Source of the DNA: a virus
IMG/VR virus record: IMGVR_UViG_3300025703_000018
Span: 1 to 21,632 of that record
Reading direction: 5' to 3' (one strand)
DNA length: 21,632 nt
The notes under the pieces are model-generated. The model did no database searches. It saw nothing but the letters and a program-made list of their open reading frames with translations, and was not told where the DNA came from. How positions within the stretch are numbered: the stretch's first letter is position 1; every line of letters begins with the position of its first letter. The translations under genes and the position numbers were made by a program. Positions 5,624 through 21,133 of this stretch are shown here, one piece after another.

Positions 5624-7036
5624 CTAAGCGTTGCCAGTGCCCTTGGAAAAGACCGTCATGATCGGGTCGATGACCGTGCCGCCGAGTACGTGGCGCACCT
5701 TGTAGTGGATCGAATCCGTATCGAAGTCGCCGTCCATCGGGTTGCTGTTGGTCGTCCCCGGAAATACTCCCGGCCCGGGTCCCATCTGGCCTTCGCCGAT
5801 CGCTACCGAGTTCGGCAGCTTCATGAACAGCTCGGGAGTGACATGACCGCGCAGCCGGCCAAACTCGATTGCCGGACGTCCGCTCTCGGGATTCGAAAAC
5901 AGATACCATCCGGTCGTGCCCTGGGTCGAGTCGACGATCGGCAGGTAATAATTCACCGCCAACCGCACAATGTTCCTGGCCCAGTTCATGGCGTGCAGTT
6001 GCTGGGCAACGGTCGCCGACAGATTATTGCCATTAATCTGCTGAGTGCCGCCCTGATCGGCCATGTAGATGTAATCCGTGTTCAGGATGTTCATCGCCAC
6101 GGTTTTGAGCGACGGCGGAACCACCAGCGTCATCGACTCGATGCTGATCGGCTGCCCGGTCGTGTCGAGCTGGTTCATCATCACAACCATCGCCTGCTGG
6201 AGCGCGGTGATGGTCAATGGAGGATTGTTGGCCGAGAACGCCCCGCCGGCGTTGGCCGCATTCACTATGTTCTTGTTCGTGTTGTTATAGAACCCGAGGT
6301 TTCCTGCAAAGAGCGAGCTCACAAAGAATTCTTCCGTGCGCCGTGCGCCGCGCCCGAACCGCGCCGGGGTATCCTTCAGGGCGTTCAGGTCATCATTGAT
6401 GAACACTTCCCAGAAAAACGGCATCCGCTTTCCCTGCTTGAAAAGCTGATAGGTGTACTGCGCGTCCGTCAGGTAATCCTCGGGATACTGACTGCCTTGA
6501 GTCAATGGCGTCAGCTGGCCGGGGTTCGGATCGCTTGAACTTTGAATCTGCGAAAGCAAGCCCGTTCCGCCGTCGATACGAAACCGCTTCACCGGTCGGA
6601 AGTCGGAGACTTCCGCGGCATTGGCGATCAGATTCCAGGTGTACGGCGTCTCCAAATAGTTCGCCAGCACCGCCCGGTCGATCACGTCGCCGAACAGATG
6701 CGGAAAGTCCGAGGTCGACAAAGCTTCACGGATTCCACCCTGCATCGCGCGCTTCAAATGAAACCGCGCCATATCGGAGCCGCCGAACGCGGCCTTGATA
6801 AGTCCGGTAGCCTGAATCATGTCCGATTCGTACATCCGGCGCTGAATATTGGGGGGGGTGCCGGCACGGCGGTAGCCGACTTCACTCACTCCCTGGGCGC
6901 TGCCGTCCCAGTCACCGAGAGCCATCCCGCGATTGTCGACGCCTTCGCGCGCGCCACCGAAGCCGGCTTTGAACGGATTCGCGGCCCGGCGCCCGAAGTC
7001 GCCCCAGTTATTCACTACATCCATGAAAGGGGTCAT
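5624..7036 (-). CDS. Major capsid protein
   Basis: A 470-residue protein directly after protease/scaffold and decoration genes and before the connector, the normal place of the shell protein. It is preceded by AAAGGAG, a strong ribosome binding site. Visible features that fit a phage shell protein are a long N-terminal region with MYESDMIQATGLIKAAFGG, the segment NLIANAAEVSDFRPVKRFR, a helical segment (ARRTEEFFVSSLFAGN) and the late beta region (PIVDSTQGTTGWYLFSNP). The fold is presumably HK97-type, possibly closer to the Mu gpT group because it travels with MuF-like, DUF2190-like and protease genes. The mature N-terminus after proteolysis cannot be predicted from the sequence alone. Long open frames on the plus strand across this gene are shadows. 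Confidence 0.9.
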   Translation of the reverse strand: MTPFMDVVNNWGDFGRRAANPFKAGFGGAREGVDNRGMALGDWDGSAQGVSEVGYRRAGTPPNIQRRMYESDMIQATGLIKAAFGGSDMARFHLKRAMQGGIREALSTSDFPHLFGDVIDRAVLANYLETPYTWNLIANAAEVSDFRPVKRFRIDGGTGLLSQIQSSSDPNPGQLTPLTQGSQYPEDYLTDAQYTYQLFKQGKRMPFFWEVFINDDLNALKDTPARFGRGARRTEEFFVSSLFAGNLGFYNNTNKNIVNAANAGGAFSANNPPLTITALQQAMVVMMNQLDTTGQPISIESMTLVVPPSLKTVAMNILNTDYIYMADQGGTQQINGNNLSATVAQQLHAMNWARNIVRLAVNYYLPIVDSTQGTTGWYLFSNPESGRPAIEFGRLRGHVTPELFMKLPNSVAIGEGQMGPGPGVFPGTTNSNPMDGDFDTDSIHYKVRHVLGGTVIDPIMTVFSKGTGNA

Positions 7037-7049
7037 CTATTTTTCTCCT

Positions 7050-7499
7050 TTAGGCGCAAGGCGCATTCTTCAAAATCACGCGAATCATTCCGGTTGTACC
7101 CGCCGCCAGAGGATCGAGCGCGATCCCGACGAACGTCCCGGAACTATCCACGTCGAGCGAATTGTGGTATGTGATCCCAGACACCGGATCATAAATCCCG
7201 CCGTCCGCGAAGATCTCATCGCCGCGGTTGATGTTCGCGCCAGCCGAGGGCGATTTCGAGGTTTGAGCCGTCACGTTCAGGTTGTAGGCGCCCTCGAAGT
7301 CGACCGTCAGAAAGCCGGAATTGTTGTCATAGGACGGGTACGAACTGTTCTGCGACTCCTGCGCGACGCCAGCCATGATGTTGCCGCGACTGCCCACGTT
7401 GTGCCCGAACAACAACACATCGTTGCTGTTGATCGTGACGCCCGCTGGCATCAGCAGCGAGAACATCGAATACCGTTCCTGGTTCTTGTTGGTTGCCAT
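7050..7499 (-). CDS. Capsid decoration/cement protein (DUF2190-like)
   Basis: A 149-residue beta-rich protein. It contains INRGDEIFADGGIYDPVSG and, near the end, GTFVGIALDPLAAGTTGMI followed by VILKN. This is the usual DUF2190 layout, in which a small beta barrel ends in a G-x-A-L...G-x-I/V-x-V motif. These proteins stud or cement the capsid surface. The gene follows the protease stop with no gap (TAA then ATG) and lies 13 nt before the capsid gene, so it is co-expressed with it. The DUF2190 relationship is judged by eye, but position supports it strongly. Confidence 0.78.
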   Translation of the reverse strand: MATNKNQERYSMFSLLMPAGVTINSNDVLLFGHNVGSRGNIMAGVAQESQNSSYPSYDNNSGFLTVDFEGAYNLNVTAQTSKSPSAGANINRGDEIFADGGIYDPVSGITYHNSLDVDSSGTFVGIALDPLAAGTTGMIRVILKNAPCA

Positions 7500-7982
7500 T
7501 TACGCGGCCCTCCCGTTGATGAACGCCTTACGAGCTTCCTTGCGCCGCTCCCGCGCGTCGATGTCGCCGGACTTCGGCAGCTTGGGGCCGACGAAGATAT
7601 CGACCATGGCCGACATCGCCTCGGTGAGCGCTTCCCCGTGCTGCTTGCCCTGCGTCTCGATTTCCTTCTCGGTCATCCGGACGCCGATAGATTGCACCGT
7701 GGGCAGGCCGAGCTCGGCCAGGAAGTCGCGCTCGATCAGAGCCTCGGCCTCGACAACCTCGGTCAGCTTCTTATTATCCGCAAGCGTGGCCGAGTCAACC
7801 GACTCCGCAATCCGCTTGACGATCTTGTTTTTCGAAGCGTCGGGCAGGCGAATGTCTTTCAGCGCCTCTTTGATGATCCCGGGCGCCTTCGACATCGCCA
7901 ATTGCTCCCGAAGCTTCTTGTTCTCGGTTTCCACCGGAGCAACCCGAGCCTCGATAAGAGCCTGAACTTCCTTCAGATCCAT
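7500..7982 (-). CDS. Nested scaffold protein from an internal start (candidate)
   Basis: An ATG at codon 400 of the protease gene is preceded by GAAGGAGAGGAAGAC, a near-perfect ribosome binding site at normal spacing. Translation from it would give a 160-residue protein starting MDLKEVQALIEARVAPVE, a highly charged helical coiled coil without the protease domain. The same arrangement is known in lambda, where scaffold Nu3 is made from an internal start in the protease gene C. Production of free scaffold is inferred from the start signal and the domain boundary. It would be needed in larger amounts than the protease. Confidence 0.62.
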   Translation of the reverse strand: MDLKEVQALIEARVAPVETENKKLREQLAMSKAPGIIKEALKDIRLPDASKNKIVKRIAESVDSATLADNKKLTEVVEAEALIERDFLAELGLPTVQSIGVRMTEKEIETQGKQHGEALTEAMSAMVDIFVGPKLPKSGDIDARERRKEARKAFINGRAA

Positions 7983-9179
7983 GTCTTCCTCTCCTTCGGG
8001 GCGTGCCCCTTCCGTGAAAACTTTTCCATCGCGGCCGGCCTTCGTTACGAAGTCCACCGAAGCCGCATTTCTCAAAGCCGTGATGACGCGGGGCTTTCCG
8101 TCGGGAGCCCGCGCCGCTTCGTCCCGATCACCGCCGGCGCGGATAGACAGGCCGATATGCGGCCCCATCTCTTTCACGCGGTCGGCGTAATCGCCAAAAA
8201 CCTTCGCCTGGGCATACAAGCCCGGCCCGTCGTGTCCGTTTTCATGCCAAGCGGCATCCGTGGTCGTCACGGCAGCCAGGCGGTTCAGATCGCCCTCGGG
8301 ACGTTGCGACTCTTCAGCATCTGTGTCGTGGTTCCAGAACATCTGCGTTCCGGCCTTAAAGACTTTGGATTCAGCGGCTTTCTTGAGAGTCTCGGCAGGG
8401 TAATAGCCCGATGACCCGCGTCCCGGCGAGATCAGCTTGATCGGGTAGGACGTGGCGGCAGCTTCTTTCAGTCGCGGCTGCTCAACGAACATTGCGGAGG
8501 ATTCGACCAGCAGAACGCCATCCGGCCTCCACGTTCCACGTGGAGCACTTTCCTTGTCTGATGCGTCCTTGAGGGAATCTGGGAGCGGTAAGCCCTTGCG
8601 CTTGCCTATTTTCTTGATGTTGGCGCGAATTGTGTCGCCGGAATAGTTCCCTGGGCCCGCCCGGGGAATGCTCGATAGCGCGGCTGGGATGTCGGCGGCC
8701 GTGTCAATTGGAAAACTTCGGCCCTTACCGGCGAAATCGGAACTATCCAGTAAGTCGCGCTTTTTCTTCGAGATGAAGCGCTCATATACCGGAAGCTCTG
8801 TATACAGCTTGGCTTCGCGCATCGCCTCGCCCATCGCGGTGTAGTGGTCGGAGTCTTCCGCTTCAGGCACATACGTGGTTTGCGGAATGACGTTCTTGGA
8901 ATTGCCGAAGTCAATTGACGTGGCGGCCTTCCCGCCCGAGGTGCCGATTTCGTACGGCGCCTGGCGCATGTCGCCCTTGCACATGTACGTCACGTTGCCG
9001 TCTGTCCCGTCGCCGTCGTGGTCTACGTAGGAATCGTCCTTGTGCTTCGGCCCGGATGCGTTGACGTGATCGTTAATCGTGTCTTTCAGCCGGTCTTTCA
9101 CATCTCCGTGCTGCATTGCAGCTTCTTGGAGTTTGAGAGCGAGGGCATGAAATGCGGGGGAAAGCTCCGTCTCGGCCAT
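7500..9179 (-). CDS. Capsid maturation protease with C-terminal scaffold domain
   Basis: A 559-residue protein in several parts. Residues 41-80 hold an acidic loop (VDHDGDGTDG) resembling a calcium-binding DxDxDG loop. Residues about 113-200 resemble a DUF6582-like helical segment (SFPIDTAADIPAALSSI, GDTIRANIKKIGKRKG). Residues 220-382 form the prohead protease domain, with candidate catalytic His284 in MFWNHDT and Ser345 in GLSIRA, followed by ASVDFVTKAG. Residues 400-559 are a charged coiled coil that acts as scaffold. The protease would cut scaffold and capsid after head assembly. The start ATG has no clear ribosome binding site. The 77-bp gap upstream holds a palindrome and the start of a divergent gene. 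The family assignment is firm; the role of the long N-terminal part is unknown. Confidence 0.88.
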   Translation of the reverse strand: MAETELSPAFHALALKLQEAAMQHGDVKDRLKDTINDHVNASGPKHKDDSYVDHDGDGTDGNVTYMCKGDMRQAPYEIGTSGGKAATSIDFGNSKNVIPQTTYVPEAEDSDHYTAMGEAMREAKLYTELPVYERFISKKKRDLLDSSDFAGKGRSFPIDTAADIPAALSSIPRAGPGNYSGDTIRANIKKIGKRKGLPLPDSLKDASDKESAPRGTWRPDGVLLVESSAMFVEQPRLKEAAATSYPIKLISPGRGSSGYYPAETLKKAAESKVFKAGTQMFWNHDTDAEESQRPEGDLNRLAAVTTTDAAWHENGHDGPGLYAQAKVFGDYADRVKEMGPHIGLSIRAGGDRDEAARAPDGKPRVITALRNAASVDFVTKAGRDGKVFTEGARPEGEEDMDLKEVQALIEARVAPVETENKKLREQLAMSKAPGIIKEALKDIRLPDASKNKIVKRIAESVDSATLADNKKLTEVVEAEALIERDFLAELGLPTVQSIGVRMTEKEIETQGKQHGEALTEAMSAMVDIFVGPKLPKSGDIDARERRKEARKAFINGRAA

Positions 9180-10549: not shown

Positions 10550-11365
10550 TTACCACTCCCCTTCGATTAGAGTTGCTACTTCAGCCAGTCTCAGTGCCGC
10601 ATCGACCGCCGCAAACGCTTCGCTGGTCACCATATCGAGTTCGTCTTCATCCCGGGCGACAACGTTCGGAGTCACCATCCAGTGCAGAATACCGCGGCGT
10701 GGAAGCGGCACGGCAGACTCCTGTAATGCGTCCCTGGTCTCTAAATCGCAATCGCAGTTTGGGTGTGCCGGGGGTTCGTCGTCGCCGCTCGGGAACGTGT
10801 CGTCCATATCGATCCACCCAGCATCGGAATTATCCTGGCACACTTCGCAGGTCCCGCCAACCCATGATTTTTCTGTATCGCCAGAGTCGACAGATTCGCG
10901 AAGTTTCAATGAGCGTTTTTGCTTCTGTTCTTCAGTAACCCCACCGACTGTTTCAAACATCGCTATAGTTGCGTGCGCGAAGTGAAACTGATTCGGAAGG
11001 TTTGAGCCCGTCAGATACGCCAACATCTTTTCGACCAATGGGCCGTGAGTAATCGCGATAACCGACTGCACGCCCTTGTCCTTACCGATGTCCTTGATTG
11101 CCTTCCATGCGATTTCCGGTTCGTTCTCTGGGTCGAGCTGCGGACAGATCATCGGCGCAAGTCCGAGTTGTTTCCCGACTCGCTGCGCCGTTGACCGCGC
11201 GCGGTGAAAGTTCGATTGCAGGATGATCTCGGGCTTCTCGACTTGCCGGGCCAGCCACTTCCCCATCATGCGCGCCTGGTCTTTCCCTGTGGGCGTGAGT
11301 TTGCGCGTCGGATCCATCTGCATACCAGACTCGGCTTCCGCGTGACGCATCAGGAAGAGTTTCAC
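10550..11365 (-). CDS. Histidine phosphatase fused to MuF-like head protein C-terminus
   Basis: A 271-residue two-part protein. Residues 1-135 form a histidine phosphatase domain of the SixA type. RHAEAES (7-13) holds the phosphate-accepting His8 with Arg7. LTPTGKDQA (23-31), SNFHRARSTAQ (51-61) and ITHGPLVE (105-112, His107) complete the active site. Residues 170-210 carry CEVC (173-176) with PSGDDEPPAHPNCDCD (192-207), the Cys/His metal-binding pattern found at the C-terminus of phage Mu gpF-like minor head proteins. The usual helical MuF domain is missing and the phosphatase takes its place. The start is GTG, overlapping the upstream stop by 4 nt. The gene follows the portal by one small gene, the normal MuF position. 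It may be packaged or attached to the portal; the substrate is unknown. Confidence 0.88.
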   Translation of the reverse strand: MKLFLMRHAEAESGMQMDPTRKLTPTGKDQARMMGKWLARQVEKPEIILQSNFHRARSTAQRVGKQLGLAPMICPQLDPENEPEIAWKAIKDIGKDKGVQSVIAITHGPLVEKMLAYLTGSNLPNQFHFAHATIAMFETVGGVTEEQKQKRSLKLRESVDSGDTEKSWVGGTCEVCQDNSDAGWIDMDDTFPSGDDEPPAHPNCDCDLETRDALQESAVPLPRRGILHWMVTPNVVARDEDELDMVTSEAFAAVDAALRLAEVATLIEGEW

Positions 11366-11589
11366 CAGATCCCCCTGCCGACCGGCTTACGCGCTTCCAT
11401 CATGAGCTTCCGCAGCATCGCGGCCTCGCGGCGCAGTCGCTTGGAGCTCAACATATCCGCGATGTGCTCCATCGATTCGTCATCCCCGATCTGACAAGTT
11501 GCCAGAATATCGCCGTTCGCGGCATGCTCAATCTCGATCAGCGTGCCGGTTCGGTGAATCAGGATCGGGCTTTCGTACTCATCGGCCAT
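11362..11589 (-). CDS. Small protein of unknown function between portal and MuF-like gene
   Basis: A 75-residue protein. The first half is beta-like and acidic (ILIHRTGTLIEIEHAANGD). The second half is a basic helix (SSKRLRREAAMLRKLMMEAR). It overlaps the portal stop by 11 nt and the phosphatase start by 4 nt, so translation is coupled on both sides. Small proteins in this slot are common in phages with MuF-type modules, but no function is known from the sequence. Confidence 0.72.
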   Translation of the reverse strand: MADEYESPILIHRTGTLIEIEHAANGDILATCQIGDDESMEHIADMLSSKRLRREAAMLRKLMMEARKPVGRGIW

Positions 11590-13570
11590 GCTTCACCATC
11601 GCAAGCGTGGCCTCTCTCAGATCGTTGATCGCATCCGCAAGCGCTTCCTTCGTCGCGGGTTTCGCGGCAGGAGCGGCTTTCGTCGGCGCGGCTCCAGGCT
11701 TAGCGGCGCCCGGCTTTGGAGGGACAGCCGGAACTGCGGGAACGCCCTCACCTGGTGCTGGTGGCGGCGGCACAACGGGAGCCGGTGGAGCTGGTGGCGG
11801 CGGAAGCGGTGGTGGAGTACTGAGATCCGTCAATGGCTTGCCCGTTGGCTGAGCCAGGAGCTGCGGAGGCACCTGAGACCGCTGGTCGGTCACGTCGGCA
11901 GCCGGATCGTACTTCTTGCCGTAAATCTTGTCCAGCAGTTCGCCACGATTCTCGAAGCCGATCTCCGCAAGCAGTAGATCGCAGATCGTTCGCCGGTCGA
12001 CCAAACCTGCCGCGATTCCTGTTCTCCCGCCCATTGATGCGATTTCTGTGATCGCCTGAATCATCGGCTGAATGTCGTGCTCGACCACGTTCGGGAATTT
12101 GATGCTGACCTTTCCGGGCTTCGTCACACCATTCTTCGCAGCTTCGCGCATCCGGCCTCCCGGCGTGGTCTTACTCACCTGAAGTACATAGTTGAACTGG
12201 CGCTTCAGAAAGTCTGAAATAAGCCGTTGCCGTTCGGTGAACTTCAATTCAGTAGGCCGGTCGAGCGATACAGCGGTTGCCAGAGATCCGGTCGACGCAT
12301 CGCCGAGGAACGTCTCAGGCAGTCCCGTGGCAGCGCAAAACATCAGCAGAATCCGGCGCGCCTGCTCTGGACTTGTTTGGACGTTCGCCGACTTGAACGC
12401 ACTGATCTGATTGCCCGGTCCGGAGATGTGCGCGGAACCGACTACCGGTGGAGGATTCTTCTCGATCTGCGTCCCGTTGCTATCCCCAAACGTCGTATTC
12501 AACAGCGCGTTGTACGCCGCGATTGCACCTGGTCCGCCCTTGGTCTCGATCATCAGCGCGAACCGTGAAAGCGTGCGCTGCACGGTCGCCCAGTCTTCGA
12601 GGAAATCCTTATACGCGCGCGCCCAGTCGATTGAAGCGTACATCGGAGGAATGCCCCAACGCCACTTCGCTGGGCATCCGACTTTCACCCTTTGAATCGG
12701 CATGTCCCAGTTGACAGGGATTCCGCCGATGCTGGTTGCTCGCGTCGGTGGAGGTTCCTCGAATAGCTCAAGGGCCGGATACCAGCACTTCTTGGGAGAA
12801 TAACTGCGGTTGCCGGTCGACGGGTCGAATTCGTCGCGGTTCCATTGACGATGAAAATACCAGGGTTTCGCGGTATCGTCCGGGTCGGTGATTACGTCCA
12901 TCACCTCCAGCGCGTCGACCATCTCGACATCAACGTCACCCTTTGGATCAGTCGCAAGCCCGAAGTACAGCGAGCCATCCGTCTCAAGCGCGCGAACCTT
13001 CTCTGCGAGTCCGATGTGGCCCAGCTCGGCCTTATTGTCTTCGAGGTACGCCTGAATCGTGTCGTCGGTCGCGGGATCGTCGGAGCGGATCTCGACTCCT
13101 CTACCGAGCACATACAGCGCGCAGATCTCAACGCCGCGTTTGATGAGCGGGTTTTTGATCGCATAGATCCGGCAGATCCGAATAAGCTGGCCAACGCCGA
13201 ACCTCGAAAACTCGAGTGTCGCCAGGGTCGTCTCGCGCACCCAGCCGCGGTCTTCGAGTGCCAATTCGAGTTCCCAAAGCCGTTCTTTCGCCTGCATTTG
13301 GACGGGAGCCGTCGCGCCGGCCTCGATCAACGCGGCATCCGGTGTCCGGCACATGGCGTCCGCGGTGCGGAGTTCCTGCATATCGCGGAGTCGTGAGCCG
13401 AGCGCGCGCTTTTGCATGGACAGCTCGGCGCCCATGGCTGAATTGATTTCCTGCTCAGCTTCCTGTGTTACTCGGGCTTCACGAATGACCGCGCCGGCAC
13501 GCGAAAGAACGTTGGTGATTGCGGGGATTCGCGGAACGTACTTCGCCGCCAGGCGGTCAAGAAACTTCAT
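11579..13570 (-). CDS. Portal protein with Pro/Ala-rich C-terminal tail
   Basis: A 663-residue protein. The core shows portal features: an N-terminal region with IKNPLIKRGVEICALYVLG, a clip/stem region with WARAYKDFLEDWATVQRTLSRF, and the late segment LMFCAATGLPETFLGDAS, which is characteristic of portals (CAATGLPETFL). The dodecameric portal forms the DNA entry channel and contacts terminase and connector. Residues 586-655 are a Pro/Ala tail with runs of prolines, followed by a short helix (LADAINDLREATLAMV). No Shine-Dalgarno sequence precedes the ATG. Instead an extended -10-like site lies 7 nt upstream. A terminator-like hairpin separates it from the small upstream genes. Confidence 0.93.
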   Translation of the reverse strand: MKFLDRLAAKYVPRIPAITNVLSRAGAVIREARVTQEAEQEINSAMGAELSMQKRALGSRLRDMQELRTADAMCRTPDAALIEAGATAPVQMQAKERLWELELALEDRGWVRETTLATLEFSRFGVGQLIRICRIYAIKNPLIKRGVEICALYVLGRGVEIRSDDPATDDTIQAYLEDNKAELGHIGLAEKVRALETDGSLYFGLATDPKGDVDVEMVDALEVMDVITDPDDTAKPWYFHRQWNRDEFDPSTGNRSYSPKKCWYPALELFEEPPPTRATSIGGIPVNWDMPIQRVKVGCPAKWRWGIPPMYASIDWARAYKDFLEDWATVQRTLSRFALMIETKGGPGAIAAYNALLNTTFGDSNGTQIEKNPPPVVGSAHISGPGNQISAFKSANVQTSPEQARRILLMFCAATGLPETFLGDASTGSLATAVSLDRPTELKFTERQRLISDFLKRQFNYVLQVSKTTPGGRMREAAKNGVTKPGKVSIKFPNVVEHDIQPMIQAITEIASMGGRTGIAAGLVDRRTICDLLLAEIGFENRGELLDKIYGKKYDPAADVTDQRSQVPPQLLAQPTGKPLTDLSTPPPLPPPPAPPAPVVPPPPAPGEGVPAVPAVPPKPGAAKPGAAPTKAAPAAKPATKEALADAINDLREATLAMVKHGR

Positions 13571-14060: not shown

Positions 14061-14797
14061 CAGGACGCGCCGGAATCGATCTCGGCAAATTTCACATCTC
14101 GATAGTAATCCGCGGGCTTGTTCCGCCCTTGCTTTCGTCCGAGCGGAGCCTGAAATGGCAAGTCGGGCAGGAATTCGATAATGGCCTCAACGGTTTCGCG
14201 CTGCTCTTTGTTCTCCAATAACAAGTCGGTCGGCGTTTCGTAGGCTGCCGCCAAGTGGAATATATCGTCTACCGTAAGACTTCTGTACATCCCAAAGTGA
14301 ATCGAGCTTACCGCGGGACCGAGGTACTTTCGAATCGAAGAAACCGGCTTAGATTCCTTTGCTGGCATGCGCTGGCTACGTGCAAGCATATTGTGAAGGA
14401 CAGTATTCTCTTTAACAACCAGACCCAATAGCGCGTCAAGCTCCGTGCTTGTTTCAAAGAGCGGGTCCCTCACGCCAGGCCTGCCTCCACTGCTTAGCAG
14501 GGTTGCTTCCCTTCGGGACTTCTTCAACTCCTCCTTGGATCTCCTCAACTCCTCCTTTAGGTGAGCCACGGTGTCCCTCAACCCCGCCATTTCAGACTCG
14601 GCGGGCGATGTTGGCCGCTGCGCCTCAGCGTCGCCCTTGCCCACATCGTAGGCGTAACAGAGGGCCGCGCCCCATGCGCGCGCAACGGGTCCCGCCATCC
14701 AAACCACATCGCTGGCTGTATACGCGCGAGGGTCCGTGATTCTCGTAATCGAACAGTAAACCCGCCACGCCTGCGCTTCTAATGTTTCTTGCGTCAT
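14060..14797 (-). CDS. Coiled-coil protein of unknown function
   Basis: A 245-residue protein starting MTQETLEAQAWRVY; the ATG overlaps the upstream stop by 4 nt. Residues about 70-100 are a strong coiled coil (VAHLKEELRRSKEELKKSRR). Residues about 152-197 (LTVDDIFHLAAAYETPTDLLLE) resemble the second half of a Cro/C1-type helix-turn-helix domain. The recognition helix part is poorly conserved, so DNA binding is uncertain. The C-terminus is basic (GRKQGRNKPADYYRD). It closes the glycosyltransferase cassette and is followed directly by the 11-bp repeat array. Its role is unknown; a regulator or a scaffold for the modifying enzymes are both possible. Confidence 0.75.
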   Translation of the reverse strand: MTQETLEAQAWRVYCSITRITDPRAYTASDVVWMAGPVARAWGAALCYAYDVGKGDAEAQRPTSPAESEMAGLRDTVAHLKEELRRSKEELKKSRREATLLSSGGRPGVRDPLFETSTELDALLGLVVKENTVLHNMLARSQRMPAKESKPVSSIRKYLGPAVSSIHFGMYRSLTVDDIFHLAAAYETPTDLLLENKEQRETVEAIIEFLPDLPFQAPLGRKQGRNKPADYYRDVKFAEIDSGAS

Positions 14798-15678
14798 ACG
14801 ACCCCAAATAAATCTAAGCCGGCGAACGCTGCCGGGCTGTGCTTCGTCCACATTTCCCGGCAAAGCCTTTCCTGGAACGGCTCAGCGTCGGGATTGAGGT
14901 ATTTCATCAGACTTCCGTACGGCAGCCACCACGAATCAGGAACGTCCGCGAACTGCCAATTATTCGGTTCACCTTGATGGGGATTACATCCCGTCTTCCA
15001 CCAGGAATACATGGTGTCGATGTCCGCGACTGGCTTGTCCGGAAACTTCAGCCGCTCCGACATTTTATAAAATGCGTGCTTAGCCCTAAGCCGCCGCTCG
15101 GTGACGCCCCACAGGTGCATGATGCCGCCGAATCCCTGGGAGATCGGCTGGTAAGGGTTGAGCCTCATCCCCTTCGGCTCGCGCTGGTGATGGTCGTAGC
15201 CGATCGGTCCGCGCGCCCAGTAAAGCCGCTCATCGTCCTTGAAGACGGTCGAGAACCAACGTCGGCCCCACGTGCCGTTGATATGGTAGCGATGCAGGCC
15301 GCCGCGCAGGTTGTAGCCCGGCAGCTGAAGCATCTGCCAGGACTCCGCAGTGCCGAGCGGCCGTCGCCAGATATCCGTTAGGTTCCCCGTCAACACTTCG
15401 TCCGCGTCCACAATCGCGATGTGCGTGGCCAGCTTCCCGCGCGCCAGGTCGAGCATCATTTCGCGGTGCTGCATTTCCGACCACTGCGGGTCCGGCGCGG
15501 AAAGCAGATGAACACGACCCGGATTCTCACGTTGCAGGTCGGCGATGATGTCGACCGATTCATCCTCGGAGCGGTGGTTTAGGATGACCAGCTCGTCACA
15601 CCACATGAGCGCAACGCGAGCCGATAGACCGAGCACCCAGGCTTCGTTTCTAACCGGCATCGTCGCGATGAGTTTCAT
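14794..15678 (-). CDS. Glycosyltransferase family 2-like protein
   Basis: A 294-residue protein. It opens with KLIATMPVRNEAWVLGLS, the typical N-terminus of GT-A family 2 enzymes (MPVRNE). It has VILNHRSEDESVDII and a DAD motif (IVDADEVL, residues 89-96) for metal and nucleotide-sugar binding. The second half has Trp/Tyr-rich segments (HRYHINGTWGRRWF, YDHHQREPKGMRLNPY) that probably form the acceptor site. The enzyme should transfer a sugar from a nucleotide donor, but sugar and acceptor are not readable. Its ATG follows the upstream TAA with no gap, and its stop overlaps the next gene by 4 nt. Confidence 0.88.
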   Translation of the reverse strand: MKLIATMPVRNEAWVLGLSARVALMWCDELVILNHRSEDESVDIIADLQRENPGRVHLLSAPDPQWSEMQHREMMLDLARGKLATHIAIVDADEVLTGNLTDIWRRPLGTAESWQMLQLPGYNLRGGLHRYHINGTWGRRWFSTVFKDDERLYWARGPIGYDHHQREPKGMRLNPYQPISQGFGGIMHLWGVTERRLRAKHAFYKMSERLKFPDKPVADIDTMYSWWKTGCNPHQGEPNNWQFADVPDSWWLPYGSLMKYLNPDAEPFQERLCREMWTKHSPAAFAGLDLFGVV

Positions 15679-16422
15679 TTAATAGTTTCCGTCAGCGATC
15701 AGCACCGTGTCTTCCGTCTCGCCGCCGCGATACGCGAACACGCCGGGTTGCTTGGTCAATTGACAACCCAGGCGCCAGGCGATCACGCTCAGCGCCGCCT
15801 GGTCGTGCCGGTGGCCCCAAACGTCAGGCGGTCCGCACGGCGCCGTCCCGCGGCTCGACTGGACCACCTCGGCGTTGCCATTTGTCCATGGTCCGCGGAA
15901 TGCCTTGGTTTTCGCCAAGCGAAGAAACTCATCGAAGATTTGAATGCCAAGTGGATGCGCCAGTGAAATACCGAATGTCGTCGCGACCACGTGCGGGATT
16001 TCCTTATTCGCAATTCTCGCCAGCGTGAGACCGCATTCCGGGAAAAGCTCCGGATAAGCTGAATCCGCCGTCCACTCATAGTTATTGTAAGGATTCCCTG
16101 AGATCCAATAGCCATCGCGCTCGATGCGTTCCCAAAGGCTTTCAAGCGGCTTCGCGCCCAGCACAATACAGGAATCAGCCCACAACAGCGACGTGTGGCC
16201 GGCTTTCATGGCCGCTTCCATCGCGTATGCCTTGAACGCATAGGGAACGCACTTCGCCAGGTCAGCCTTCAAGACTCCAGCCGTGCGATGCGGCGGGCTG
16301 CCCGCCGGGAGTTCATTGGTCCAGAACATGCCCGGCTGTCCAATGTCGTGCAGGATGCTCTTCAGCCGGTTCTGTCCCTTTACCCACGAATCGGAGGCGA
16401 CGTTCAGAACGATGCGGCTCAT
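15679..16422 (-). CDS. Glycosyltransferase-like protein (probable)
   Basis: A 247-residue protein with features of nucleotide-sugar-dependent transferases. It has a beta segment ending in SLLWADSCIVLG (residues 78-89, a possible metal-binding acidic site). A late VWGHRHDQAALSVIAWRLG (201-219) resembles the HR-x-DQ-x-x-x-S motif of several polysaccharide-type glycosyltransferases. Other conserved-looking parts are GYWISGNPYNNYEWTAD and VVATTFGISLAHPLG. It overlaps the upstream gene by 4 nt and abuts the next one. The call rests on the HRHDQ motif and on its neighbours, so it is less certain than for the two family 2 enzymes. Confidence 0.7.
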   Translation of the reverse strand: MSRIVLNVASDSWVKGQNRLKSILHDIGQPGMFWTNELPAGSPPHRTAGVLKADLAKCVPYAFKAYAMEAAMKAGHTSLLWADSCIVLGAKPLESLWERIERDGYWISGNPYNNYEWTADSAYPELFPECGLTLARIANKEIPHVVATTFGISLAHPLGIQIFDEFLRLAKTKAFRGPWTNGNAEVVQSSRGTAPCGPPDVWGHRHDQAALSVIAWRLGCQLTKQPGVFAYRGGETEDTVLIADGNY

Positions 16423-16712
16423 TCGTGCGACTCCATCGCGATTCCGATGAGAACTCCGTTCATGAAAACGTCCTCTATAAACATCCTCACAACCTGCTCG
16501 TCACTGACATTGGGGTGATCTGGGTGCTCAGAGATCAATCGCGAAGCACAAGATATGATGAAATCGCGCGTCAGCGGAGACGCGTGCATTTCTTTCGCCA
16601 AGGAAAGGCAACGCTCACTCGCGTCTTGGGCTTTCTTTAGCTTCGCCAGATCAACACCAGTGGCCGGTGTCCCGATCACCATCTCCTCCATCGCCTCTTC
16701 AAACGTTTTCAT
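16419..16712 (-). CDS. Small helical protein of unknown function
   Basis: A 97-residue protein starting MKTFEEAMEEMVIG; the ATG overlaps the FkbM-type gene's stop by 4 nt. It is helical and acidic, with two Cys, and contains SEHPDHPNVSDEQVVRMFIE near the end. The open frame continues upstream through Arg-rich sequence that is a shadow of the methyltransferase gene, so the shorter form is chosen. It is coupled to the following glycosyltransferase-like gene by another 4-nt overlap. No family is recognised. It could be a partner subunit of the modification enzymes. Confidence 0.7.
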   Translation of the reverse strand: MKTFEEAMEEMVIGTPATGVDLAKLKKAQDASERCLSLAKEMHASPLTRDFIISCASRLISEHPDHPNVSDEQVVRMFIEDVFMNGVLIGIAMESHE

Positions 16713-17290
16713 AAGCTGAACACCAGATTCTCGGCGCTGGCGTACACCTGCTTGTACCCGCGCTTCTGTGCCGCCATCTGTGCCTCGACCGCGCGCCCAT
16801 CGTGCTCCACGCAAATGCACCGTGGAAACATTTCGGTTGCCAGTAGGACGTGCAGAAGGTCGACGGAGGTTCCCTCTGTATCGATCGACACCATGTCGAA
16901 AGATCCCCACCGCGTCAGAATATCCCCGATGGTAATCGTGGGAATCAGCATCCTACCGATGTACCCGCCGCGCTCCTTCCACGTCTCGACCGTTTGATTT
17001 TGAGTGCTCGATACCGCATCGTCCGTAATCAGTATCTGTGCCATGCCGCGCTCGAAACCGACAGCGCCGCAGACAACCGTCACAGTCGGCGTGTCCGCGT
17101 ATTCGACTACCAAGTTGCGCACCGGGCCGGGTGACGGCTCAATCAGAATCGCGGACCAACCCAGCTCGATCAGCGCTCGGGAATTGCTTTTGTCTTTCGG
17201 GTCCCACGCGCCGATATCGAGAACGCGCCGCACGGTGGAAGATTTGCAGGCTTCGAGAATGTACTTCTCTTCGTCATTTTGGCTGTACAT
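16709..17290 (-). CDS. FkbM-type SAM methyltransferase
   Basis: A 193-residue class I methyltransferase. Motif I is VLDIGAWDPKDKSNS (23-37). AILIEPSPGPVRNL follows as the second SAM-contacting strand. FDMVSIDTEGTSVDLLHVL (131-149) is the hallmark of FkbM enzymes (SIDTEG.....L). FkbM proteins O-methylate sugars and other small hydroxyls, which fits neighbours that transfer sugars. The start is the ATG at 17290, which shares a base with the preceding stop (TGATG). A GTG three codons earlier is possible but gives a longer overlap. Substrate unknown; the family call is firm. Confidence 0.87.
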   Translation of the reverse strand: MYSQNDEEKYILEACKSSTVRRVLDIGAWDPKDKSNSRALIELGWSAILIEPSPGPVRNLVVEYADTPTVTVVCGAVGFERGMAQILITDDAVSSTQNQTVETWKERGGYIGRMLIPTITIGDILTRWGSFDMVSIDTEGTSVDLLHVLLATEMFPRCICVEHDGRAVEAQMAAQKRGYKQVYASAENLVFSL

Positions 17291-18027
17291 CAGTCGCACC
17301 TCGTAAAGTCAAAGTCACTCATCCGCCCGTCGAGTAGTTGCCGCCTCACGTCCGGGTCGGGCGTGTGATCCGGTGGTGCGAAATCCCCACGCCAACAGCA
17401 CGCCACCACGTGCGGAGTGAAGTACACCCGGCACTTGAATCCCTCCATCATCAGCCATTGAACGGCCTCGCGCACCGGATTGCCGATGAAATCGTGAAAA
17501 ATGATGACACCCGTTTCGGTGAGATGCTTCGCTGAGTCCTGCGCGTCTTCAAGCGGCTTGCCGGGCTCGTGGTCGCCGTCGACGCAAACCAGTCTGAACA
17601 GGCTACCTGCGCTTCTTCGGACGAAGAATTCATCAGACCGCTGAGCTACGGCGGTGGCTGAGCCGTTGACGTTATCGCGAAACCGCTGGTGAAACTCGGC
17701 CTTCGCGAACATCGGTTCAAGCGCAATCACGCGCATACCACCAGCAGCCATGTGAATCGAAGTCCATCCGGTGTGCGCGCCGATGTCGAGTGCCAGGCTT
17801 CCCGGAAACGTATAGGTGAGCCGGGCGCTTACGTCGAAGAGGATTGCGGCTTCGTCGTGAGTCCACATGCCACAGTTTTTGTAGAGCCCGAACACGGGAT
17901 CATCTTCGGCTTTGTCGGCCCAGTCTGACGGCACATCGTGTCCAAAGCTGTGCGGCATTGGTCTGACGTGAAGATGCTTGAAGTTCTGCTGAAGGGCAGG
18001 CGCGGTGAGATTGGATCGATAAATCAT
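17290..18027 (-). CDS. Class I SAM-dependent methyltransferase
   Basis: A 245-residue protein with motif I SLALDIGAHTGWTSIHMA (77-94) and MRVIALEP (98-105) as the acidic ribose-binding strand. LFRLVCVDGDHEPGKPLEDA (143-162) and GVIIFHDF (173-180) are typical of the Methyltransf_24-like group, which often acts on sugars or secondary metabolites. The C-terminus (DPDVRRQLLDGRMSDFDFT) has no known motif. It overlaps the preceding glycosyltransferase-like gene by 4 nt (ATGA) and the FkbM gene by 1 nt. It should modify the same acceptor as the neighbouring enzymes or the sugar they add. Confidence 0.85.
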   Translation of the reverse strand: MIYRSNLTAPALQQNFKHLHVRPMPHSFGHDVPSDWADKAEDDPVFGLYKNCGMWTHDEAAILFDVSARLTYTFPGSLALDIGAHTGWTSIHMAAGGMRVIALEPMFAKAEFHQRFRDNVNGSATAVAQRSDEFFVRRSAGSLFRLVCVDGDHEPGKPLEDAQDSAKHLTETGVIIFHDFIGNPVREAVQWLMMEGFKCRVYFTPHVVACCWRGDFAPPDHTPDPDVRRQLLDGRMSDFDFTRCD

Positions 18028-18836
18028 AGTGGTTCGTGGCCCGGGAATCCCGCGGCCTTCCTTTCTTCGAACATCTTCCGTGATTCGTTCCAGTGCTCAG
18101 ACGTGTTCCACTTCACCGCGTGCGGCGCTTTGACCACGAGGTCCGCAGCGTTTGCGAGCTTGCCGGGCTCTGGATGTCTCAGCGCGTGCTGGTGAAGCTG
18201 CGTCAAGTCCCGGCGCTGCCAGAGCACGCCCATCCTGATTGCCACCTCCTGCGCTTCCTCGTCAACGAACATGTGCCGGTAGCCTTCAAAGAGCGGGCCC
18301 TTGCCGCCGTACATCCTTCGGCAGTATTCGCGTCCGTACCACGCTGATCCGCAAACCCGATCGATAAGCGCGCCGCGGTTCTCGCCGTACCTCACTCGGG
18401 AATGCGGAGTGTCTTGCCAGCGATCCCCGGTCGGTTGACAGACCCCAAATGTCGATAGCGGTCCAATCTCTGCCGCATGATGCGCTTCGTTGCCATAGTG
18501 CAGCTTCGTAAAGTAGCCTTGGCACTGCGCCGCGATTTTCTCGGCTGGCACTTTCGGATCAGGCAACACGTCGTCACCCGCCGCAATAAACCACTCGGCG
18601 TCGGAGTCCACTTTCATCACAAGTTCGATCAGGTGATTTACGGCAACGGCATATCCGGGATATTGTCCGCCCCCAACACCACAGAGGCCATCGCACGCCA
18701 AATCCGCAGAGGCCGGGCAGGAGGCTCCAGAGTCCCGCCACAGTGCGATTTTATATCCCTGCTCGCGGTAAAGGCGAAGGACTTTTTCTGCCTCCTCAGG
18801 CGGTCTTGCAGACGGTATTGTCAACCAGACCGACAT
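18024..18836 (-). CDS. Glycosyltransferase-like protein (GT-A type, probable)
   Basis: A 270-residue protein from the ATG at 18836 (MSVWLTIPSARPPEEAEKVL). It has AEWFIAAGDDVLPDP (residues about 84-98), an aspartate pair like the DxD site of GT-A transferases. GYRHMFVDEEAQEVAIRMG and VLWQRRDLTQLHQHA resemble the C-terminal half of phage-borne transferases that recognise a sugar acceptor. A longer upstream frame is open but overlaps the small membrane gene and lacks family-like sequence. The start shares one base with the stop of that small gene (TGATG). Sugar donor and acceptor are unknown. Confidence 0.77.
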   Translation of the reverse strand: MSVWLTIPSARPPEEAEKVLRLYREQGYKIALWRDSGASCPASADLACDGLCGVGGGQYPGYAVAVNHLIELVMKVDSDAEWFIAAGDDVLPDPKVPAEKIAAQCQGYFTKLHYGNEAHHAAEIGPLSTFGVCQPTGDRWQDTPHSRVRYGENRGALIDRVCGSAWYGREYCRRMYGGKGPLFEGYRHMFVDEEAQEVAIRMGVLWQRRDLTQLHQHALRHPEPGKLANAADLVVKAPHAVKWNTSEHWNESRKMFEERKAAGFPGHEPL

Positions 18837-18973
18837 CAGAACCACCACTCGCTTTTCTTGAGCGCGTAACACGTCGCGAAACCGGCTAGCCAAACGCCAG
18901 GCAGCCCGGGAGTGCCAAAGAGCCCACAAAAGCCGCCAACGCCGATCCCGAGAATTACGATGATGATTTTCAT
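18836..18973 (-). CDS. Small membrane protein, 45 residues
   Basis: The frame from the ATG at 18973 encodes 45 residues. It begins MKIIIVILGIGVGGFCGLFG, continues TPGLPGVWLAGFATCYALKK and ends SEWWF. Two hydrophobic stretches separated by a Gly/Pro turn (GTPGLPG) suggest a helical hairpin or one long membrane span with a basic end. The ATG overlaps the upstream glycosyltransferase stop by 4 nt and the TGA overlaps the downstream start by 1 nt. It therefore bridges two genes exactly, which is strong evidence that it is translated. It could anchor the transferases at the membrane or move a lipid-linked sugar; neither is shown. Confidence 0.72.
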   Translation of the reverse strand: MKIIIVILGIGVGGFCGLFGTPGLPGVWLAGFATCYALKKSEWWF

Positions 18974-19680
18974 TTGAGAATCTCCCGCACGTGATCATCC
19001 CAGTCCGGAACGCGTTTCCAGTTCGGCGAGGCTTCGATACCCTGGTAGCCGTTCGATGAGTTACCGCCGTGAATCCGAGCGATCATGCGCGGCGTTGTGT
19101 GGTCAAGATAGCGCACGTCGTACCCAGGGTGAATGCTGGACTCAGCTTCCACGTGCCGCCCACGCAGGAAGTCCCAGTCTTCACCACCACCCCCAGGTTG
19201 CTTCCTTGGGAGCTGCGGATTGAAACGTCTCGCCTCCCACGTTTTGCGCCAGTAACAAAACGACGTGCCCAGAGTCTGACGAGGCGTATCGCCAGTGTAC
19301 AGCCAGGCTTCGCCTTCGCGCCAGAACAGCATTTCGTTGTAGCCCACCAAGCCGGCGCCGCTTGCCTGCAAAAGCTCGAGCTGTTCTGTGATGCGGTTCG
19401 GGTGAGCGTAATCATCATCGTCCCAATGCACGATCACGTCCGCGTTCACGGCCAGTGTGATTGCCGCGTTGCGCAGCGTCCCGATAGGTTCACCGCGAAA
19501 CTCACGCGCATCGCACCAGAGCTCTTGCGGCTGGTGTTCCATTTCAAGGTGCTGTTCGCCGGTGTCGAAAACTAGAAGGCTGGCAAGCGGGTAGGTCTGC
19601 GCGTCAAAACACTGAACCGCCTTCTTGGCCAGCTCGTGGCGATCTCGCGTAAGCATCACGGCGACAACGGTTGGATTCAT
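18970..19680 (-). CDS. Glycosyltransferase family 2
   Basis: A 236-residue GT-A enzyme. It begins MNPTVVAVMLTRDRHELAKKA, the usual family 2 start. It has GTLRNAAI and the DxD-type cluster VIVHWDDDDYAHPNRI (82-97), then GGGGEDWDFL and ARIHGGNSSN near the end, which are typical of transferases with an acidic catalytic residue (ED) in a late loop. The start chosen has AAGAGGAA about 4 nt upstream. Earlier in-frame starts lie between terminase and this gene and have no such site. It is the first gene of the modification cassette, 106 nt after the terminase gene. Confidence 0.88.
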   Translation of the reverse strand: MNPTVVAVMLTRDRHELAKKAVQCFDAQTYPLASLLVFDTGEQHLEMEHQPQELWCDAREFRGEPIGTLRNAAITLAVNADVIVHWDDDDYAHPNRITEQLELLQASGAGLVGYNEMLFWREGEAWLYTGDTPRQTLGTSFCYWRKTWEARRFNPQLPRKQPGGGGEDWDFLRGRHVEAESSIHPGYDVRYLDHTTPRMIARIHGGNSSNGYQGIEASPNWKRVPDWDDHVREILK

Positions 19681-19766
19681 CGGTTCCTCTTTTCGTGCCC
19701 CCAAGCGCTGAACGGAGCGGCAACCGATGAAAGAAGCACAAAGCCCAGCGCCTGAGGACAATCGGG

Positions 19767-19786: not shown

Positions 19787-21133
19787 TCAATACCGGGATA
19801 TCGTGACCCGATGCCCGAGCGCCTGAATACCTGGCGTCTGTTCCATGTCGATCAGTAACTCAGTCACCGCCCACACCAGCGCATCCATCCTGTCCGGCGA
19901 TCTTTGATCCGAGCCCGGCACGAAACTGCACATCTGGTCTTCGAGGTTTGGAAACACGCCCACGTGGTGAACGCGCGCTTGTTCGTAAAGCGCCGCGACG
20001 GGCTCCGCGCGAACCATCTTCCCTCGGCTCGCTCGCACCGCCCGATACGAAACGTTGGGCGCCACGGCTCGAATGTTGGCCTCAACCAGATCGCCGCCGT
20101 TGTTCACCTCGCCCACGATTCTGTCGGCCCTCCGCGAAACATAGGCATTGACTGCGATCCTCGCCCAGGTGAGCGGCGATTCACGGCACGTCAAGTCATC
20201 GAGGATCAGAACGTGGCCGTTGCTGGTCAGTGCCGCAACGACGATGCCAGTCTCATCGGAAGTGTCCGACGCGCTGACCGCGGGATCGATAGCCACCACC
20301 ACGCGGACAAACGTATCGATATTCACCCGCCCAATACCGATTCGCGCGGCCTCAATCAGCCCTCGAGTCCATAATGCCCCGGGAACGTCTTCGAGAATCT
20401 CCGCGAGAATCTCCTGCCGGCCGAGCCGCGTTCCCTCGTACGGCGTGATTACCTTGCGGTAGTAGGTCTCCGAAAGGTTCGCGGAGTTGTCGTAGCTCGA
20501 CCCGCGGGTAACGACCGTGGCCGTCTCTGTGATGATCTCCTTGAGAACGGGTATCGGCTTCGGCGTGGTGGTGATGACGCCCTGCAAAGACTTTCCAGGG
20601 AGGCGAAAGCCGAACATGATCTGGTCCCATGCTTCGCGTGCAAACCGCCAGCTGCATAATTCATCTGCCCAGAACTTCGTGAACTGCGGACCACGCAAAC
20701 GTTCCGGTTCATCCGCCGAGCGCGTCATTGCAATTGCGCCGCTTGGAAACGTGACCAAATGCCGCGAAGGGTTGTAGGTCGGCCTTTCGCCCTGGGGATA
20801 GCAGGAAAGCAAACCGCTGGGTCCCTCAATCATGACCTCGCGCACGTCCGCCGCGGTCGGGGCGATCATCAGGATGCGCTCCAATGGATTATTCGCCCAG
20901 TCGCGAACCGCCTCGGCTCCTGTTCGGGTCTTGCCCCAGCCACGACCAGCCAGCACCAGCCAGAACAGCCAGTCGCCAACAGGTAGGATCTGATCCGGGC
21001 GCCCACACCAGCGCCAGTCGAAATTCAGCTCTTCAAGTTGGCTGTCCGAGAGCCCATCAAGCGCTTCCGCTACCACTTCGTCGCTCTCGAATGCGAGCGA
21101 TTCGAGCCGCGATAATTTCTCTTGAGGGGACAT
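19787..21133 (-). CDS. Terminase large subunit
   Basis: A 448-residue packaging motor. The ATPase has Walker A AGRGWGKT (62-69), Walker B FWADE (154-158) and the coupling motif TTTPKP (188-193). The nuclease domain has Asp283 in VVAIDPAVSA, Glu342 in VGEVNNGGD and Asp417 in SPDRMDALVWA, the acidic triad that binds the metal ions. The layout fits the Terminase_6-type family. The protein cuts the concatemer and drives DNA into the prohead through the portal. The ATG at 21133 overlaps the small subunit gene by 77 nt and has no good ribosome binding site; a GTG at codon 20 is possible. All catalytic residues expected are present. Confidence 0.95.
   Translation of the reverse strand: MSPQEKLSRLESLAFESDEVVAEALDGLSDSQLEELNFDWRWCGRPDQILPVGDWLFWLVLAGRGWGKTRTGAEAVRDWANNPLERILMIAPTAADVREVMIEGPSGLLSCYPQGERPTYNPSRHLVTFPSGAIAMTRSADEPERLRGPQFTKFWADELCSWRFAREAWDQIMFGFRLPGKSLQGVITTTPKPIPVLKEIITETATVVTRGSSYDNSANLSETYYRKVITPYEGTRLGRQEILAEILEDVPGALWTRGLIEAARIGIGRVNIDTFVRVVVAIDPAVSASDTSDETGIVVAALTSNGHVLILDDLTCRESPLTWARIAVNAYVSRRADRIVGEVNNGGDLVEANIRAVAPNVSYRAVRASRGKMVRAEPVAALYEQARVHHVGVFPNLEDQMCSFVPGSDQRSPDRMDALVWAVTELLIDMEQTPGIQALGHRVTISRY

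Follow-up and report, generated by a model that had tools for sequence, protein, structure and literature searches.

A SixA-type histidine phosphatase joined to part or all of a MuF minor head protein in the head module of mostly uncultured tailed phages

The window, by which we mean the whole 21.6-kb IMG/VR virus record analysed here (21,632 nucleotides), carries on its minus strand a head module in the normal arrangement, in which terminase, sugar-related genes, portal, a 75-aa ORF, a phosphatase gene, two small ORFs, head maturation protease, a probable cement protein and the major capsid protein follow one another (Table 1). The phosphatase gene is an unbroken reading frame encoding 271 aa, whose GTG start has a GGGGG stretch upstream and overlaps the stop of the preceding ORF as GTGA. 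The original prediction had placed an intact gene in the MuF slot next to the portal, and both the intact frame and the slot, downstream of the portal and upstream of the protease, are borne out, but the gene does not abut the portal, from which the 75-aa ORF separates it. The possibility of a frameshift or of two separate genes was rejected, fused frames recurring in relatives. The sugar cassette (14794-19761) occupies an unusual place between terminase and portal, and comprises a glycosyltransferase (14794-15678), a methyltransferase (17290-18027) and a possible second glycosyltransferase (18970-19761).

Table 1. Features of the phosphatase gene and its head module in the window
Feature	Positions	Strand	Evidence or remark
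Terminase large subunit	19787..21133	-	PF03237/PF17289
Portal protein	11579..13570	-	phrog_10963 portal, E 3e-65
75-aa ORF between portal and phosphatase	11362..11589	-	stop overlaps GTG start
Whole protein: SixA-type histidine phosphatase with nested MuF knob	10550..11365	-	271 aa, GTG start
Phosphatase core, residues 1-141, first part of SixA fold	10943..11365	-	TIGR00249; AF2 pLDDT mostly >85
Codons of Arg7-His8	11342..11347	-	invariant in 23 phage SixA domains
Codon of Arg55	11201..11203	-	invariant in 23 domains
Codon of His107	11045..11047	-	invariant in 23 domains
Insert in last hairpin, residues ~143-222: charged helix, knob, linker	10700..10939	-	missing from L066, L026, L069, L070
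MuF C-terminal knob, residues ~164-212, CxxC...HPNCDC (173-206), presumed metal-binding	10730..10876	-	
Last SixA strand (LHWMVTPNVVARDE) and C-terminal helix, residues ~223-271	10553..10699	-	AF2, alignment, class C relatives
Head maturation protease	7500..9179	-	phrog_15531, E 1e-27
Probable cement/decoration protein	7050..7499	-	Phage_cement_2, 18.6 bits, under its cut-off of 24
Major capsid protein	5624..7036	-	PF25209, E 8e-35

The N-terminal part of the protein is recognised by the NCBIfam SixA profile TIGR00249 over residues 2-138 at 92 bits (equivalog cut-off 74.5; E 3e-26), by Pfam His_Phos_1 (E 9e-13) and by the solved E. coli SixA, PDB 1ujb (E 3e-15), and the relative L004, which has the same layout, scores 84.4 bits against TIGR00249. 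Structure prediction, proposed together with the original prediction, gives a SixA fold: an AlphaFold2 (AF2) model built from 9 sequences (mean pLDDT 71; mostly >85 in the core and mostly <50 in the insert) aligns to 1ujb in VIA-align with Z 22.8 at 2.4 Å over 153 of 156 residues, spanning model residues 1-237, so that the stretch beyond the knob is needed to complete the SixA domain. The last SixA strand lies at residues 225-231 of the model, within a region (~223-238) that holds the strand and the start of the following helix and that is uninterrupted in the relatives of class C described below. With SixA the window protein shares the fold, the core size, Arg7-His8, Arg55, His107 and a last strand with a tryptophan; it differs in that the phage proteins are encoded in head modules, bear a MuF knob as an insert or a MuF protein at the C-terminus, and extend the C-terminal helix.

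Of the SixA active site originally read from the letters, Arg7-His8, Arg55 and His107 are present, whereas the 'RAR' motif at 55-57 dissolves into a single conserved residue, Arg55. Across 23 aligned phage SixA domains, with a mean column identity of 37%, these four residues are among 11 invariant columns, an outcome that simple counting gives a chance of ~2e-5, and they are still kept when E. coli SixA is added to the alignment; the expected conservation of His8 and His107 in homologues thus holds, with one exception (L002). In SixA itself His8 is the phospho-accepting nucleophile, essential in the E. coli enzyme (PMC7948535). The dN/dS of the SixA part is 0.11 for the pair L010-L014 and 0.07 for L004-L007, the latter saturated; estimates for pairs other than L010-L014 are approximate, dS being high or, in the closest pair, very low. 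Judged by such comparisons, the domain is under purifying selection in the relatives. The gene product is predicted to be a catalytically competent SixA-family phosphatase, and this forms part of the explanation preferred below.

The knob of the window protein corresponds to the last third of the Phage_Mu_F domain. Taken alone, it gives weak matches to PHROG portal and minor head profiles (E 5e-4 to 2e-2), and the whole protein has no match to PF04233 at E up to 1. Its homology is firm because relatives share the tail: a tail query from the window is 84-92% identical to L004 and L002, and the window tail is 76% identical to the end of L005, which contains a full PF04233 match (45.8 bits, cut-off 29.6); L004 aligns to PF04233 positions 77-111, weakly (E 0.11; 13.6 bits against 29.6). 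L005 (3805-6144) is itself a fusion of portal and complete C-terminal MuF domain in one chain. Both halves of the window protein, as originally proposed, therefore have real homology, the SixA half directly and the knob via relatives.

The knob interrupts the phosphatase within its last beta-hairpin, ahead of the final SixA strand, a nesting that both the knob-less relatives and the AF2 model display. Four knob-less close relatives (L066, L026, L069 and L070; 69% identity to the window in the SixA part of L066) continue straight through '...HFAHAAVAHFETTTGKRGIMHWLVTPNVVARD...', the very point at which the window protein, L004, L007, L068 and L079 have at least 80 extra residues including the knob; L068 and L079 hold a recognisably different version of it at the same insertion site. 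For the knob itself AF2 gave no usable fold (pLDDT mostly <50). The helical MuF body, present in class A relatives, has no such region in the window protein. These results modify the original picture of a phosphatase that takes the place of the N-terminal MuF domain ahead of a C-terminal CxxC...HPNCDC pattern: the MuF homology of the pattern stands and the MuF body is indeed gone in the window lineage, but the knob is internal, nested inside the phosphatase fold, and across the family simple replacement does not apply, since class A consists of complete MuF proteins to which SixA is added as an N-terminal domain.

The same SixA-MuF fusion, which it had been proposed to seek in viral databases, was found in IMG/VR head modules. 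Relatives were recovered by profiles of the knob, the SixA-MuF protein, the protease and SixA, and counted from locus tables; 34 further contigs have an intact SixA in the head slot, every one with the portal upstream, the protease downstream, or both. Four layouts occur, namely SixA with a complete MuF protein (class A, 14 contigs), the knob inside SixA (class B, 7 contigs and the window), SixA followed by the knob (class B', 6 near-identical contigs) and SixA without MuF or knob (class C, 7 contigs). The carriers are tailed phages of one family, most of them uncultured, in which SixA is resident in the head-assembly module at a fixed place between portal and head protease. It is class A, by fusing SixA to a full MuF protein, that ties the phosphatase to a virion protein. 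The MuF part of class A is recognised by PF04233 (above the cut-off in L080, 31.5 against 29.6, and slightly below it in L089), by PHROG head morphogenesis and minor head families (matches down to E 5e-16) and, at the level of structure, by matches to minor capsid proteins of phages. In the AF2 model of L080 a SixA domain (1-150; Z 20) precedes a long helical MuF body and then the knob; its viral structure matches include minor capsid proteins and histidine phosphatases, and among solved structures the list is filled by the phosphatase half, so that the MuF half is barely tested there. The domain facts are solid.

Several single loci depart from these layouts. L002 has SixA-derived sequence before its knob, with all catalytic residues lost; an unrelated N-terminus was considered for it and rejected, direct comparison matching L086 (E 3e-18) and L035 (E 2e-16). 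In L084 (7001-9022; IMGVR_UViG_3300021437_000045) a SixA-MuF protein holds an intein/HINT-like stretch of ~200 residues, starting AVLEGSTF and ending VVSN, which splits the knob motif exactly between HPN and CDC, and for which Pfam reported no intein family. Related phages without SixA are L011, L030, L042, L044, L009, L038 and L047; MuF without SixA also occurs among related phages, as does the knob alone, in small ORFs of the same slot (L009:4592-4987, L038:5918-6328, L047:3077-3421), and the sequence that precedes the knob in L047 resembles the SixA C-terminal helix and may be what is left of a lost phosphatase. In both L002 (upstream of 5578) and L011 (~2280-2480) the MuF or knob gene is directly preceded by a small ORF with a zinc-ribbon-like WTCPKCG motif.

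On a protease tree with a 31-member ingroup, SixA-bearing phages fall on both main branches, the nearest relative of the window being the knob-less L026, and layout class changes at least 16 times against a shuffled mean of 24.4, so that layout is clustered but labile. On the SixA tree a fully supported branch separates the phage domains from E. coli SixA and three bacterial-like sequences. A SixA profile anchored on E. coli found 26 IMG/VR loci, 23 of them in the head slot, the other three looking like bacterial SixA in isolate-genome records; this profile includes family members and uses two peptide patterns, and its count is not an unbiased census. A portal-based scan for relatives returned L002 alone. 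No relative of this kind turned up among 50,697 phage records, and tblastn of phage isolates with the window, L013, L014, L037 and L066 proteins yielded nothing but MuF tails, from Arthrobacter and Methanoculleus phages and Brevundimonas phage Strzyga, and one SixA in a Salmonella record. The latter, OR850995.1 (Salmonella phage S.Kent 1-2-1, 3660 bases), holds an unannotated SixA homologue of 29-33% identity and may be host DNA. Bacterial genomes, scanned with a few peptide patterns only, gave no relatives; prophages of the group may nevertheless exist.

Comparison with known systems places these proteins as a fresh variation on an established theme. With MuF proteins of the SPP1 gp7 type (PF04233) they share the position downstream of the portal and the CxxC...HPxCxC end, class A having a complete MuF; the window protein differs by its want of a helical body and of a PF04233 match, and by a knob that sits inside another domain. 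MuF proteins fused to effector domains have already been described (PMC5512222, PMC5576092, PMC3482391), as the original prediction had stated, with the PBECR RNase, 2H phosphoesterase, RelA/SpoT, PRTase, zeta-like kinase and toxins as partners (PMC5512222, PMC5576092), and MuF-enzyme fusions have been interpreted as injected effectors (PMC5512222); we found no histidine phosphatase there. These polyvalent proteins and MuF polymorphic toxins likewise combine an enzyme with a virion-associated MuF part and are presumed to be delivered when the phage infects, but their toxin domains are C-terminal, whereas the histidine phosphatase is N-terminal or wrapped round the knob. As a MuF polymorphic toxin the window protein would have its domain order reversed, and it shows no toxin domain and no toxin/immunity signature. 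Viral histidine phosphatase or PGAM genes (giant viruses; Acinetobacter phage ME3, Tenacibaculum phage PTm1) share the superfamily fold, but give weaker, superfamily-level matches whose names mention no MuF part. In the open-access literature, outside which most subscription journals lie, no SixA-MuF protein or histidine phosphatase in a minor head protein was found; the original prediction knew of no described case in which a phosphohistidine phosphatase replaces the N-terminal domain.

The best explanation, to which we assign a probability of roughly 0.58, is a phosphohistidine phosphatase carried in the virion and ejected with the genome. Beyond the observed homology, conservation and gene context, we infer packaging, activity and substrate as follows: the MuF part (in the window, the knob) would anchor a small number of copies in the head interior close to the portal, the phosphatase would be ejected together with the genome into the infected cell, and the ejected enzyme would dephosphorylate phosphohistidines of host proteins in the early phase of infection. 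The known substrates of SixA suggest nucleoside diphosphate kinase, phosphocarriers such as NPr, PfkA or HPt domains as candidate targets. The enzyme is often joined to a head protein that presumably travels within the particle, which makes delivery into the cell with the viral DNA probable; on the 7 contigs with SixA but neither MuF nor knob, packaging is less certain. Virion delivery and action on host phosphorelays, which the original prediction had put forward, are suggested by the complete-MuF fusions and by analogy with published work: in SPP1 the portal targets few copies of gp7, of the MuF type, to the procapsid interior, and gp7 supports the start of infection (PMC6316719), while SixA dephosphorylates NPr, Ndk, PfkA and, in vitro, ArcB (PMC12934123, PMC7948535). 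The more specific proposal that a head-packaged, MuF-tethered SixA is ejected with the genome and acts as a phosphohistidine eraser, so that signalling or metabolism based on histidine phosphate in the host (NDP kinase, phosphotransfer proteins) is reset as infection starts, is one that we hold tentatively.

The enzyme might instead be made late and act in the producing cell, as an auxiliary metabolic or moron gene located in the head module but unpackaged, a view that fits the stand-alone SixA genes in the slot on 7 contigs and the listing of sixA in a review among unvalidated soil-virus auxiliary metabolic genes (PMC12713726); we consider it unlikely, however, given the 14 contigs in which SixA is fused to an entire MuF minor head protein and the retention, in the window protein and others, of a knob for which a soluble late enzyme would have no need. 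Delivery in the virion could also serve a small-molecule phosphatase, acting on a nucleotide, sugar phosphate or signal molecule, possibly against nucleotide-based defence. Small-molecule phosphatases are also found among SixA-fold enzymes, and the AF2 model matches RosC, the MutT1 C-terminal domain, PhoE and alpha-ribazole phosphatases at Z ~18; yet SixA proteins are the best sequence and structure matches and a PADLOC search for defence genes returned no match, which leaves such a substrate improbable. A structural role, in which the SixA fold is a binding or plug domain of the minor head protein and catalysis is secondary or lost, would account for the persistence of the domain where the MuF body is lost and for L002, which keeps the fold by sequence with its catalytic residues gone, so that catalysis is not always needed; since Arg7, His8, Arg55 and His107 persist in every other member sampled, amid divergence of most of the remaining sequence, we regard this role as rather doubtful. 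A chance motif, frameshift or assembly artefact, to which the weak knob match in the window alone might have pointed, can be practically discarded in view of the same gene structure in independent contigs, including knobs at the same insertion place.

With these findings, the enzymes that apparently enter cells on MuF proteins come to include a phosphohistidine-type phosphatase, a partner that is undescribed in the literature found. The findings also uncover a natural series, from SixA-MuF through SixA with the knob inside, SixA-knob and SixA alone to MuF alone, in which a head protein and a cargo enzyme have been recombined and nested, and they suggest that some of the sixA genes counted as soil-virus metabolic genes may be head-module proteins.
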